33,997 bases of DNA from contig JAKPFN010000071.1 of assembly GCA_029551395.1 (NCBI GenBank), forward strand, positions 1 through 33,997, in the 5' to 3' direction. The notes under the pieces are model-generated. The model saw nothing but the letters and a program-made list of their open reading frames with translations. It made no database searches and had not been told where the DNA came from. A program made the translations under genes and the position numbers. This stretch comes from Armatimonadota bacterium. Its GTDB lineage: Bacteria; Armatimonadota; UBA5829; DTLH01. Below are positions 7,514 to 19,850 of the stretch, piece after piece; position 1 is the stretch's first letter; every line of letters begins with the position of its first letter.

Positions 7514-9166
7514 TTAAGCTGCTGTTCCGAGGATTTCGCTCAAGTCCTGCTCTGGTGTGCTAATCGGCTTGATATTGAAGTTCTCCACAAGCACATTCAG
7601 CACGTTTGGAGTCACGAACGATGGAAGTGTCGGTCCAAGCCGGATATTCTTGATCCCAAGGTGAAGAAGCGTAAGCAGGATAGCCACAGCCTTCTGCTCA
7701 TACCAGGACAGAATGAGAGAAAGTGGTAGGTCGTTTACCCCACATCCAAACGCTTCTGCCAGCGCTGAAGCAATCTTGATTGCTGAATAGGCATCGTTGC
7801 ACTGCCCGATATCCAGAAGCCGCGGAATACCGCCGATGTCTCCGAACTCAAGCTTGTTGAACCTGTACTTTCCACAGGCAAGCGTAAGAATCACTGCATC
7901 ATTCGGTACAGCCTGCGCCATATCGGTATAGTAGTTTCGCCCAGATTTGACCCCATCGCATCCGCCAATAAGGAAGAAATGCTTGATAGCGCCGCTCTTG
8001 ACTGCATCTATGACCTTATCAGCCACGCCAAGCACAGCATTATGCCCAAAGCCTACAAGAATCGTCTTGTCTGGGCCGTCTTCAGTGAAACCTTCCGCTG
8101 CAAGCGCTGCATCTATAACCGGCTTGAAGTCTTTATTGGCAATATGAGTCACTCCCGGCCATGCTACAAGTCCGGTCGTGAATATCCGGCCTTTGTAGCT
8201 GTCTTTTGGCCGCTGTATGCAGTTGGTGGTCATCAGGATAGCGCCTGGGAACTGATCGAAATCCCTTGCCTGGTCCTGCCATGCGCCTCCATAGTTACCA
8301 ACCAGGTGCTTGTAAGCCTTAATCTTGGGATAGCCATGAGCAGGAAGCATCTCGCAGTGCGTGTAGACATTTATTCCAGTGCCTTCTGTCTGCTTGAGCA
8401 GTTCTTCAAGGTCTTTCAGGTCATGACCGGAAACAAGAATCGCCTTGCCTTTGACCGGCTCAGTGCGGACAGGAGTCGGAACAGGATTGCCATAAGCCCC
8501 GGTGTTTGCTGCATCCAGCAAAGCCATAACTTTCAGGTTAAGCTCTCCAACCTTCAAGCTGCGTGTTATCAGTTCATCGGTTGTCGGGTTATCTATGGCT
8601 AGATAATTGAGCATGTCGTGGAATTCAGCATAGACGCTGTCATCTTCCTGACCGAGAATCTGAGCATGATCAGCATAAGCAGCAGTGCCTTTGAGTCCGT
8701 ATGTAAGAAGCTCTCGAAGCCCTGCTACATCTTCACCCAGCGCCTCAATCCTGCCGGGAATGGAGACCTGCTCTCCCTGCTTGACCAGACCTTCCAGACT
8801 ATCTGCCGGAGTCCACTTTGCAGGCCCGCCAAGTGTCTCAACAGGTTCGCCAGCCTTCGCTGCTGCAGCTTCATACATTGCTTTTGCCCGGTCGCGCAGT
8901 TCAGCAGCCTTATAAAGGAGTTTTTGAAGTCTCTCGGGGTCAAAATCTACATTAGTAACAGTCGAGAAGAGGGCTTCGATAACGAATACATCTATCTCCC
9001 GGTCCGAAACACCGAATTTTCTTGCTCTATGGGCATACATAGAGACTCCTTCAGTCGCATAAAGCAGTAAATCCTGAAGCACTGCTGTCTGCGGATCTTT
9101 TCCGCATACTCCAAAGGTAGTGCATCCTTTTCCATTTGCTCTTTGCTCACACTGATAGCAATACAT
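7514..9166 (-). CDS. hcp: hydroxylamine reductase / hybrid-cluster protein
   Basis: The 550-residue product is a hybrid-cluster protein. Hcp reduces hydroxylamine to ammonia in vitro and is credited with nitric oxide reduction in vivo in E. coli. The N-terminal iron-sulfur cysteines are C3, C6, C15 and C21. The hybrid-cluster ligands lie in recognisable motifs: THCEMLPAHGYP, TTNCIQRPKD, GGCDGVKSGRNYY, LACGKYRFN and DIGQCNDAYSA. I start at the ATG at 9166 (MYCYQCEQ); the TTG 27 bases upstream would place the SD (AGGAGG, 9179-9184) inside the coding region. The SD spacing of 12 bases is rather long. It lies downstream of the Rrf2 regulator on the same strand with a 115-base gap. No hcr-type reductase is nearby, so the electron donor is unknown. 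Confidence 0.96.
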   Translation of the reverse strand: MYCYQCEQRANGKGCTTFGVCGKDPQTAVLQDLLLYATEGVSMYAHRARKFGVSDREIDVFVIEALFSTVTNVDFDPERLQKLLYKAAELRDRAKAMYEAAAAKAGEPVETLGGPAKWTPADSLEGLVKQGEQVSIPGRIEALGEDVAGLRELLTYGLKGTAAYADHAQILGQEDDSVYAEFHDMLNYLAIDNPTTDELITRSLKVGELNLKVMALLDAANTGAYGNPVPTPVRTEPVKGKAILVSGHDLKDLEELLKQTEGTGINVYTHCEMLPAHGYPKIKAYKHLVGNYGGAWQDQARDFDQFPGAILMTTNCIQRPKDSYKGRIFTTGLVAWPGVTHIANKDFKPVIDAALAAEGFTEDGPDKTILVGFGHNAVLGVADKVIDAVKSGAIKHFFLIGGCDGVKSGRNYYTDMAQAVPNDAVILTLACGKYRFNKLEFGDIGGIPRLLDIGQCNDAYSAIKIASALAEAFGCGVNDLPLSLILSWYEQKAVAILLTLLHLGIKNIRLGPTLPSFVTPNVLNVLVENFNIKPISTPEQDLSEILGTAA

Positions 9167-9281
9167 TGTTTTGGTTGTCCTCCTGTTTTGCAATTCTTTA
9201 AATATAAACTTTTACCTGTTTGCAGCTACTGCTCCGGTGCAGTCTTATAACCTGACCTAACCTGCCTCTATTGCCTTTCTA

Positions 9282-9722
9282 CTATCCGGGCAGCTTTACT
9301 TCTGACTTTATTTTTGAATCATCAGCAAGCTGTGTAAGAGTCGTTTTTGAAAAGTATTCTCCTGCCTCTCTGTTGATGACTTCAAGCAGCTTACCGAGGA
9401 TACACATCTGCCGACCACATACCGGCTGACCCATAAGACATTCCGACATTGTTAGCGGCCCCTCTATCGCTTCGTAGACATCGAGCAGAGTTATAGAATC
9501 AGCCGGTCTAGCCAACCTTACCCCACCTTTTGGCCCGCGACTGGATTCCAGAAGCCCTGCCTTTGCCAGCCGCTGGCATACCTTTGATAAATGGTGCTCC
9601 GATACACACAGGGAAGATGCAATTTCATGGACTGAGACCAGTTTATCCGTCGTTTCAGATAAAGCAGTCATCATATGAAGTGCAAGCGATGCAGCTTCCG
9701 ATATTCTCAACATGTGCGGCAT
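9282..9722 (-). CDS. Rrf2-family regulator with three clustered cysteines (NsrR/IscR type)
   Basis: The 146-residue protein starts at ATG 9722, with GGAG 9 bases upstream; a longer frame from 9740 would swallow this SD. Residues 1-75 form the Rrf2 winged helix (ISEAASLALHMM, VSVHEIASSLCVSEHHLSKVCQRL, SRGPKGGVRLARP). Cysteines 95, 102 and 107 (C-x6-C-x4-C) sit where NsrR and IscR bind an iron-sulfur cluster, though the spacing is not identical to either. Its position just upstream of hcp, a known NsrR target in enterobacteria, suggests a sensor of nitric oxide or redox stress. IscR-like cluster sensing without nitric oxide specificity is the main alternative. Confidence 0.9.
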   Translation of the reverse strand: MPHMLRISEAASLALHMMTALSETTDKLVSVHEIASSLCVSEHHLSKVCQRLAKAGLLESSRGPKGGVRLARPADSITLLDVYEAIEGPLTMSECLMGQPVCGRQMCILGKLLEVINREAGEYFSKTTLTQLADDSKIKSEVKLPG

Positions 9723-9749
9723 AAATACTATCTCCAGCAAGGCTATTTC

Positions 9750-9792
9750 GGTATTACAGTACTAAAATACCCTAATTAACCACTGGTGTCAA
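9750..9792 (-). promoter_or_regulatory. rrf2-hcp promoter with overlapping palindromic operator
   Basis: On the minus strand TTGACA (9787-9792) and TATTTT (9764-9769) are separated by 17 bases. The -10 lies inside a 22-bp inverted repeat at 9750-9771, GGTATT-NN-AGTACT-NN-AATACC, in which 18 of 22 positions are symmetrical. This is the classic layout of repressor-blocked transcription. Autorepression by the Rrf2 protein is the simplest reading. Confidence 0.7.
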
Positions 9793-9924
9793 CATGAAAA
9801 TCAAAAAATTATGGAGAATTATTCCTCAGCATTATAAACCTGGATTACCCATACACAAGCGAGGTCTTAAACCTGAAGGTGTCGAAGTTTACAACTGGAC
9901 AATTTTCTACCTGGAGGTTGTAAC

Positions 9925-10746
9925 GTGAAAGTCCGGATATTGGGAACTGCGGCGGCTGAAGGCTGGCCTGGATTGTTCTGCGGGTGTGAGACGTGCAAAA
10001 AAGCACGTGCAGCAGGCGGCAAAAACCTGAGAAGCCGTGCCTCTCTGCAGATAGACGACTTTTACAAGATAGACTTCCCTCCTGATACCTTTTACCACGT
10101 CATGAAATACGGCCTCGACCTTTCCAGGCTCAGATATCTATTTATCACGCACTCACATGAAGACCATTTTGCAAAGGATGAGTTCGAATACATTCTGCCT
10201 GGATTTGCACATAATGTCGAAGCTCCAATCAGAATTTACGGCAATTCGGCGGTTATAGATGCACTCAAACAGATTAAAGAAAGCTCTGATGCTCCAGAAG
10301 GTCTTGTCGAGTTGACTGAAATAAAACCATTTGAGCCTGTAAAAGCTGACTATCTCACATTCACACCCATCAAAGCTGAACATAAGTATTCTGAGCAGGC
10401 TGTAAACTACCTGGTGCAGTCTGAATCAAAAACGATGCTTTACGCTTCGGATACAGGAAGATACTCTGAGGCAGCGATAGAGTTACTATCCCGACAGAAG
10501 ATAGACATTGCTGTTATTGAATGCACTCTTGGCCTGCTTCCGTGGGAACCTCGGACCCACATGACCTTCGGTGCAGTGCTGGAATTGAGAGATATGCTGG
10601 TAAAGTCAGGCGCAGTCGATTCGAATACCCAACTGGTCATAACTCATTTCTCTCATAACATCGGGCTGCTGCATGAAGAACTGGAGCAGATTGCATCTCC
10701 TGAAGACTTCACCGTAGCTTACGATGGGATAATGTTGGAAGTATAA
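9925..10746 (+). CDS. PhnP-like metallo-beta-lactamase-fold hydrolase
   Basis: The 273-residue protein has the two-metal site motif H76-S-H78-E-D80-H81 and the later motifs LYASDTGRY, IDIAVIECTLG and THFSHNIG expected of the fold. Near the N-terminus it carries CGCETC (C19, C21, C24) followed by KKAR, the structural-zinc motif seen in PhnP and PqqB-like enzymes. PhnP is a cyclic phosphodiesterase in phosphonate use. No phn or pqq genes are nearby, so the substrate is open and a phosphodiester is the best guess. GTG start at 9925 with SD CTGGAGG at 9911-9917. It stands alone between the rrf2 promoter and the nuo promoter. Confidence 0.8.
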   Translation: MKVRILGTAAAEGWPGLFCGCETCKKARAAGGKNLRSRASLQIDDFYKIDFPPDTFYHVMKYGLDLSRLRYLFITHSHEDHFAKDEFEYILPGFAHNVEAPIRIYGNSAVIDALKQIKESSDAPEGLVELTEIKPFEPVKADYLTFTPIKAEHKYSEQAVNYLVQSESKTMLYASDTGRYSEAAIELLSRQKIDIAVIECTLGLLPWEPRTHMTFGAVLELRDMLVKSGAVDSNTQLVITHFSHNIGLLHEELEQIASPEDFTVAYDGIMLEV

Positions 10747-10963: not shown

Positions 10964-10982
10964 GAACCGGGTGGTGGATCCA

Positions 10983-11010
10983 AACCTTATGTTTGCGTAA
11001 ACATAAGGTT
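10983..11010. promoter_or_regulatory. perfect 12-bp-stem palindrome in the nuo leader
   Basis: AACCTTATGTTT (10983-10994), a GCGT spacer and AAACATAAGGTT (10999-11010) form a perfect inverted repeat at about +13 to +40 of the predicted transcript. As DNA it could bind a dimeric regulator; as RNA it would be a stable hairpin close to the 5' end. No T-run follows, so it is not a terminator. Confidence 0.75.
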
Positions 11011-18865: not shown

Positions 18866-18916
18866 GCGGGCAAATACCCGCAGAATAACCGCCCGGGATA
18901 CATATCCCGGGCGATC
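18866..18916. repeat. two-hairpin repeat unit, copy A
   Basis: A hairpin GCGGG-N6-CCCGC (18866-18881) is followed after 9 bases by a perfect 10-bp-arm palindrome GCCCGGGATA-CA-TATCCCGGGC (18891-18912) and GATC. The same 51-base arrangement recurs at 19800-19850 and 21020-21070. Paired hairpins of this kind resemble the bacterial interspersed mosaic elements that REP-associated transposases act on. Confidence 0.75.
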
Positions 18917-19172
18917 AATGGGTACGGTTTATGCTCATAGAACACCTGGGATACATATCTCGGCGTTCAGTAGGTAAAGTTTACGCTTATGATCACCCGG
19001 ATACATATCCCTAGTAGTCAGTAGGTAAGATTTACGGTTATGATCACCTGGAATGCATATCCCGAGCAGCCAGTAGGTAAGATTTACGCTTATGATCACC
19101 TGGAATGCATATCCCGAGCAGTCAGTAGGTAAGGTTTACGCTTATGATCACCCGGGATGTGTATCCCGGGTG
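18891..19172. repeat. tandem array of about 52-bp units, each with a palindrome
   Basis: Five units (18891-18946, 18947-18997, 18998-19048, 19049-19100, 19101-19152) plus a closing palindrome (19153-19172) fill most of the 453-base gap after nuoN. Each begins with a form of GGGATACATATCCCGAG, continues with CAGTAGGTAAGATTTACGC and ends TTATGATCACC. Units 4 and 5 differ at two of 52 positions, so they arose recently; units 1 and 2 are more diverged. The first and last palindromes are the most complete. No open reading frame crosses the array. Confidence 0.85.
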
Positions 19173-19179
19173 CAAGTTT

Positions 19180-19197
19180 GGCGGATATTTATCCGCC
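19180..19197. repeat. palindrome GGCGGATA-TT-TATCCGCC upstream of the RAYT
   Basis: A perfect 8-bp-arm palindrome with a TT spacer, 51 bases before the transposase start. It has the same GGATA-NN-TATCC core as the array but different flanking arms, a likely left-hand REP-like end. Confidence 0.7.
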
Positions 19198-19248
19198 TAA
19201 AACAATCTAAACGGTAATCCACCTTTTCTGACATACAAGGAGCCTATT

Positions 19249-19782
19249 ATGTCGCAAAGTTACCGAGTTGCCGAAGCAGGATACCCTTACTTTATCACCA
19301 GTACAGTTCTTCATTGGATCTCCATTTTTAGTCGAGATGACTATTTTAAGGTCCTGGTCGACAGCTTTAATTACTGCATCAAGAACAAAGGGCTCATTGT
19401 TCACGCTTATGTCCTGATGCCCAATCATTTTCATGCTGTGCTAACTCAATCTGAGGGCAAGTTGTCTGATGTAGTCCGAGACATGAAAAGACATACTGCA
19501 AAGACAGTCGGATTAAAACTTGAGCCTGATGGTCGATTAATGTGGTTACGCAGCTTCCATAACGCTGCCAAAACACCTGACGGAATAAAGCTATGGAAAG
19601 ATGAGTTCCATCCTGAGCAGATATATAGCCAAAAATTCTTTGAGCAAAAGGTGGATTACATACATAACAATCCCGTCCGTGCCGGATACGTAGTTGATCC
19701 GTGTTATTGGAAGTACTCAAGTGCCGGGTTTTATTATAAACAGGAGCCGTCTGTTATTGATGTTACGCCTATTATGTGGTGA
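19249..19782 (+). CDS. REP-associated Y1 transposase (RAYT, IS200-like HUH fold)
   Basis: The 177-residue protein is a Y1 transposase (PF01797 type). The HUH motif is H60-F-H62 in VLMPNHFHAVL. The N-terminal YPYFITSTVLHW matches the family, as does the C-terminal VDYIHNNPVRAGYV followed by WKYSSAG. Such enzymes nick single-stranded REP hairpins and are thought to spread them. I cannot place the nucleophilic tyrosine: the helix after HUH reads RDMKRHTAK without Tyr, and Y126 or Y137 are possible. ATG 19249 has the SD AGGAG. Related palindromes flank it on both sides. Confidence 0.88.
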   Translation: MSQSYRVAEAGYPYFITSTVLHWISIFSRDDYFKVLVDSFNYCIKNKGLIVHAYVLMPNHFHAVLTQSEGKLSDVVRDMKRHTAKTVGLKLEPDGRLMWLRSFHNAAKTPDGIKLWKDEFHPEQIYSQKFFEQKVDYIHNNPVRAGYVVDPCYWKYSSAGFYYKQEPSVIDVTPIMW

Positions 19783-19799
19783 TAATAAATGGCTGAGGA

Positions 19800-19850
19800 G
19801 CGGGTAAATACCCGAAAAACATCCGCCCTGGATAAATATCCAGGGCGATC
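19800..19850. repeat. two-hairpin repeat unit, copy B (right of RAYT)
   Basis: CGGGTA-AA-TACCCG (19801-19814) is followed by the 11-bp-arm palindrome CGCCCTGGATA-AA-TATCCAGGGCG (19824-19847). Compared with copy A, the changes in the two arms compensate each other, which shows that base pairing rather than sequence is conserved. It begins 18 bases after the RAYT stop. Confidence 0.8.

Follow-up and report, generated by a model that had tools for sequence, protein, structure and literature searches.

A predicted Rrf2-type repressor of the hybrid cluster protein gene with its own core-promoter operator in Armatimonadota and other phyla

By comparative analysis of a 33,997-nucleotide stretch of DNA from an Armatimonadota bacterium (hereafter the window) and of related loci in other genomes, we describe an Rrf2 regulator that represents a new subfamily within a known regulator type, has its own operator, and is not NsrR, IscR or RsrR. 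Sequence comparison provides strong support for the predicted link between operator, regulator and target, the target being the hybrid cluster protein gene hcp. We consider it probable that the protein is an autoregulated Fe-S repressor of hcp, released from DNA upon cluster damage, most likely by nitric oxide (NO).

The regulator gene rrf2 (9282-9722, minus strand) encodes 146 amino acids and begins at ATG 9722 with GGAG upstream, alternative starts being possible at TTG 9740 and ATG 9713. It is followed on the same strand, after a gap of 115 bp, by hcp (7514-9166), which begins at ATG 9166 with AGGAGG before the start and has TTG 9193 as a second possible start. Its product is a clear member of the NCBIfam hydroxylamine reductase family (827.9 bits versus a cut-off of 367); Hcp acts as a hydroxylamine or nitric oxide reductase. 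The promoter TTGACA-N17-TATTTT, placed before both genes in the initial annotation (minus strand, 9792-9764; -35 box at 9787-9792, -10 box at 9764-9769), has 10 of 12 matches and is the sole sigma-70-like site called in 9150-9930. The proposal that this one promoter serves both genes is also supported: no terminator-like site was called between rrf2 and hcp, and the 115-bp gap, although it offers space enough for a separate hcp promoter, has none called in it. A divergent gene upstream of the rrf2 promoter (9925-10746) encodes a PhnP-like protein of the metallo-beta-lactamase fold that falls below the PhnP cut-off (79.8 versus 272 bits).

The palindrome GGTATTACAGTACTAAAATACC at 9750-9771, which reads GGTATTTTAGTACTGTAATACC on the minus strand, covers the entire -10 box and has 9 of its 11 pairs symmetrical, corresponding to the 18 of 22 paired positions counted initially. 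Taken by itself the dyad is no more than mildly unusual, since 22-mer dyads of equal quality number 12 in the window versus ~4.8 expected by chance, and one this good is expected in ~1.7% of 120-bp promoters of the same composition. Symmetry as the sole proof was rejected as insufficient, such dyads being common, and the 22-bp predicted operator is counted as real because it is conserved across relatives. The clade-wide consensus is GGTATTnTaGTACCannATACC. A match of at least 5/6 to TTGACA at a spacer of 15-18 from the TATnnT of the operator is present in 32 of the 45 operator-bearing relatives, versus 1.5% expected for three adjacent positions, and the -10 element is therefore formed by the operator's left half; the centre and right half (GTAC, ATACC) are kept far beyond any promoter element. 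The site GGTATT-NN-AGTACT-NN-AATACC, at first merely unfamiliar, thus emerges as the clade-wide site of this regulator; a search of the open-licence PMC literature yielded no account of an Rrf2 protein with this operator or with the cysteine spacing considered below.

Other palindromes occur elsewhere in the window. Near-perfect copies of a single type, GCCCGGGATACATATCCCGGGC and its variants, are located at 18891, 19150, 19178 and 19825, and a 177-aa open reading frame flanked by palindromes of this type (19249-19782) reads like a REP-associated tyrosine transposase; the interval 18891-19846 is possibly a REP-RAYT unit. The palindrome AACCTTATGTTTGCGTAAACATAAGGTT (10982-11010), with 12-bp arms, lies ~85 bp before a nuoH-like gene (11094) and is a candidate operator of the respiratory-complex operon.

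Among the first relatives collected, source genome included, the operator and the cysteine motif were found together in six of six cases, with hcp adjacent or one gene off. In the five same-phylum relatives identified by protein search (L002-L006), hcp adjoins rrf2 or is one gene away, the C-x6-C-x4-C motif is kept, and the rrf2 promoters contain GGTATAAGAGTACCTGAATACT, GGTATAAGAGTACCGAAATACC and GGTATAAGGGTACCGAAATACC as well as GGTATTGTGGTATTACATTACC and CGTATTATAGTACCGCAATACC; the operator is absent from 24 more distant Rrf2 paralogs of the phylum. With a scoring matrix trained on the same loci that were later scored, 37 of the 48 clade loci have a site above 8 bits in the 160 bp upstream, a score reached by 0.4% of the shuffled sequences and by none among 22 Rrf2 loci outside the clade.

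Searches that started from the operator alone gave a concordant picture. The pattern GGTATNNNRGTACYNNNATACY, allowing at most one mismatch, has 41 sites in 291 Armatimonadota genomes, seven of them exact, and 14 of the 41 (six of the seven exact ones) are located directly before rrf2 of this clade. Eight genomes with this rrf2 that had not come from the protein search were recovered in this way (G240, G262, G263, G276, G281, G282, G286 and G287); because these new genomes were in no training set, this search is largely free of training circularity. The genome G277 carries an exact operator without a neighbouring rrf2. Two sites occur in G276, one of them a good operator in front of a truncated second rrf2 (L138, 1591-1823; contig C209 of G276) whose frame diverges after the winged-helix part. 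In 24 genomes of other phyla, reached via clade loci, 15 of 15 matching loci have the site just before rrf2, hcp or fdx, and a reversed control pattern gave three matches in the same genomes; as the pattern was tuned on sites in these genomes, its sensitivity cannot be taken as independent, although the absence of stray sites is still informative.

The position of the operator also identifies the probable targets. In L035 and L037, whose operons start with hcp instead of rrf2, it lies ~110-140 bp upstream of hcp; a second copy is found between rrf2 and hcp in L074 and L076, and between rrf2 and a ferredoxin-like gene in L071 and L072. The sites before hcp in relatives point to control of NO-detoxification genes by the clade regulator. 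The gene hcp is present in 30 of 57 clade loci versus 1 of 44 other Rrf2 loci (about half of the latter with shorter flanks), and a ferredoxin-like protein of 250-270 aa is encoded in 26 of the 57. Flavodiiron protein genes adjoin the clade members L045, L050 and L081, rubrerythrin genes L073 and L075, and a gene for a small Zn-ribbon-like protein is near some others, leaving ~11 of 57 loci with none of these five gene types nearby. Comparison across the clade gives good support to the predicted operator, to its constant position within the core promoter, to its association with this group of regulators and to hcp as the target.

Two other genomic contexts were observed. In the Bacteroidales loci L054, L063, L064 and L065 the clade member follows an 83-aa gene resembling the TM1266-type iron hydrogenase system regulator, and no operator was found within 160 bp upstream in these four. 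In L042 an open reading frame ~2.4 kb downstream of rrf2 encodes a CooS-like carbon monoxide dehydrogenase, which is related to Hcp, and ferredoxin and Zn-ribbon genes are near.

Assignment of the protein to the Rrf2 family is clear from its domain (PF02082, 117.8 bits versus a cut-off of 30; NCBIfam rrf2_super, 102.6 versus 73.3). The equivalog cut-offs of NsrR (51.8 versus 182 bits), IscR (55.2 versus 207.55), RirA, CymR and the Xanthomonas-type suf regulator were all missed, and these identities were rejected. The close relatives form one clade of 54 rows with branch support of 100/99 in the careful tree, separate from NsrR, IscR, CymR and RsrR, and placement on the NsrR branch was discarded accordingly; in a quick tree the NsrR proteins of E. 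coli and S. coelicolor group with RirA-like rows. When one genome per species was scanned, relatives were found under record labels of metagenome-assembled genomes, some of them loose, of Actinomycetota, Cyanobacteriota, Planctomycetota, Krumholzibacteriota, Spirochaetota, Myxococcota, Thermodesulfobacteriota, Bacillota, Bacteroidota, Verrucomicrobiota, Lentisphaerota and Pseudomonadota, and the pair of regulator and operator recurs in more than 10 phyla.

The C-x6-C-x4-C motif seen initially is formed by C95, C102 and C107 of the 146-aa protein (9402-9440, minus strand; CLMGQPVCGRQMC), the presumed Fe-S ligands. Its spacing is indeed out of the ordinary, the odd part being the second interval, which is x4 in 47 and x3 in four of 52 readable clade rows versus x5 or x6 in 31 of 32 other Rrf2 rows; an x6 first interval is common outside the clade. 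The corresponding spacings are 4/5 in E. coli NsrR, and 5/5 in E. coli IscR and S. coelicolor NsrR. A histidine in helix 1, His16 (codon 9675-9677, minus strand), is kept in 54 of 54 clade rows versus 7 of 46 others, six of these seven being RsrR and its actinobacterial kin. Structural alignment with an offset of 4 to RsrR and NsrR, and sequence alignment as well, place His16 at residue 12 of RsrR, equal to Arg12 of NsrR; we take the RsrR ligands to be Glu at residue 8 and His at residue 12. The position equal to residue 8 is Ser12 here, and Ser, Ala or Asn in most clade rows, and cannot serve as it does in NsrR and RsrR, which leaves the histidine as the obvious candidate for fourth ligand. 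Judging from this conservation, His16 of the partner subunit would likely complete the cluster. An acidic residue is found seven positions before the histidine in 52 of 54 clade rows. The AlphaFold2 monomer model (pLDDT 87) has a winged-helix fold with a long C-terminal dimer helix and matches the structures of CymR, IscR, RsrR and NsrR with Z scores of 11-18; CymR structures score best, with no more than ~2 Z units separating the CymR, RsrR and IscR matches.

Comparison with known systems reveals partial likeness to several. The protein resembles NsrR in fold, in having three cysteines close to the C-terminal helix, and in its predicted targets, hcp and other NO-detoxifying genes; an nsrR-like gene is located beside hcp in Rhodobacter capsulatus E1F1 (PMC1274295). 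In S. coelicolor NsrR the cluster is held by three cysteines and Asp8, and destruction of the [4Fe-4S] cluster by NO takes the protein off DNA (PMC11138216). In contrast to NsrR, with its cysteine intervals of x4/x5 or x5/x5, the intervals here are x6/x4, Asp8 and Arg12 of the S. coelicolor protein are replaced by the clade-conserved Ser12 and His16, and the operator is GGTATT...AATACC instead of gATGyAT-N5-ATrCATc (PMC1274295). RsrR has the helix-1 histidine at the same place, and its [2Fe-2S] cluster is bound by two cysteines of one subunit and by His and Glu of the other (PMC11138216); here there are three cysteines in a tight x6/x4 motif and a serine for Glu8. RsrR also has other targets and occupies a different branch of the quick tree, and identity with it was rejected, given that the histidine is universal in the clade yet Glu8 is replaced in most rows.

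IscR, RirA, RisR and CymR are likewise winged-helix Rrf2 regulators with operators at promoters, and none of those included in the tree belongs to the clade. The IscR ligand His107 corresponds to Gly110, CymR lacks a cluster, and RisR, with cysteines 92/102/108 and the site GAC-N7-GTC (PMC9973013), differs in both motif and operator. A single ligand change, N8D in RirA, alters what an Rrf2 protein senses (PMC10510648). HcpR, whose core target pair is Hcp and a ferredoxin-like partner (PMC1274295), belongs to the CRP/FNR family, recognizes CRP- or FNR-like sites and is unrelated to the protein described here; the Rrf2 clade appears to be an alternative answer to the same task.

The initial annotation, correct as to the sequence and largely so as to the interpretation, had viewed the locus as a compact self-contained unit, and the genome search that it had suggested bears this out: the 3.58-Mb source genome has a single Rrf2, a single hcp and one exact operator match, at rrf2-hcp. 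A wider regulon in this genome was rejected, as the three two-mismatch sites, one of which scores moderately (15 bits, L034), are fewer than the control count. No operator was found before nrfA or the ferredoxin homologue in the stretches covered. The ferredoxin-like partner of the source genome (L143, 1468-2277; contig C16 of G000), 47% identical to the query from L036, is encoded by a lone gene without an operator. The genome encodes the nitrite reductase NrfA, a source of nitrosative by-products, which makes NO and hydroxylamine plausible internal stresses.

These observations are consistent with the following model, in which the dimer, the Fe-S cluster, repression by the holo-form, NO as the signal and the histidine ligand are drawn by analogy from the family. 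The two genes rrf2 and hcp would form an autoregulated operon. Each subunit of an Rrf2 dimer would hold one Fe-S cluster on C95, C102 and C107 together with His16 of the partner, and the holo-protein would bind the 22-bp operator over the -10 box, excluding RNA polymerase from both genes. Nitrosylation or loss of the cluster, most likely through NO arising from nitrite reduction, would take the protein off the operator, and the Hcp then produced would remove NO or hydroxylamine until repression is restored. A repressor that covers the -10 element and controls its own gene is standard among Rrf2 Fe-S regulators.

The main rival reading keeps the same repressor, operator and target and replaces NO by a wider signal, namely oxygen, peroxide or general Fe-S state, so that air or iron shortage would cost the protein its cluster and hcp would be one of several anaerobic protection genes. 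Sequence alone cannot separate these signals from NO, and the flavodiiron and rubrerythrin neighbours in the clade, which also handle oxygen and peroxide, fit both. As the only Rrf2 of its genome the protein could hold an IscR-like role, and similar clusters serve IscR, RirA and RisR in sensing iron or Fe-S state. However, hcp is by far the commonest partner, clade members were not seen to adjoin isc or suf genes, the one site in the source genome is at rrf2-hcp and not at an Fe-S assembly operon, and NrfA is encoded in the genome; we therefore regard the wider signal as rather unlikely. Improbable to a greater degree is a cluster-free regulator sensing by oxidation or nitrosation of cysteine thiols, as S. 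aureus CymR senses by thiol oxidation. It draws on the best structural matches of the model being cluster-free CymR structures, but these matches exceed those of RsrR and IscR by so little, CymR lacks the cysteines in question, and three cysteines at fixed spacing in nearly the whole clade, with a universal His16, argue for a cluster. That the palindrome is a mere by-product of the promoter sequence, with Rrf2 acting elsewhere, would fit its overlap with the -10 box and the surplus of such dyads in the window, but is very unlikely after the operator-only searches, given the conserved GTAC centre and ATACC right half and the power of the motif to predict rrf2, hcp and fdx loci across phyla.

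The preferred reading, a cluster-bearing repressor of hcp that responds to NO, has implications beyond the source organism. Hcp is widespread, yet to our knowledge its regulator is undescribed for many phyla. The chances appear evenly balanced that the clade constitutes a distinct class of Rrf2 sensor in more than 10 phyla, with an x6/x4 three-cysteine cluster completed by an inter-subunit histidine and an operator whose left half is the -10 element, serving as the equivalent of NsrR or HcpR for hcp in many bacteria. The conserved histidine and the new cysteine spacing predict an additional mode of cluster binding among Rrf2 sensors. For Armatimonadota, Planctomycetota, Krumholzibacteriota, Spirochaetota, Verrucomicrobiota and others, the regulator, its exact predicted site and its target genes are now available together, and the corresponding regulons can therefore be annotated from sequence.
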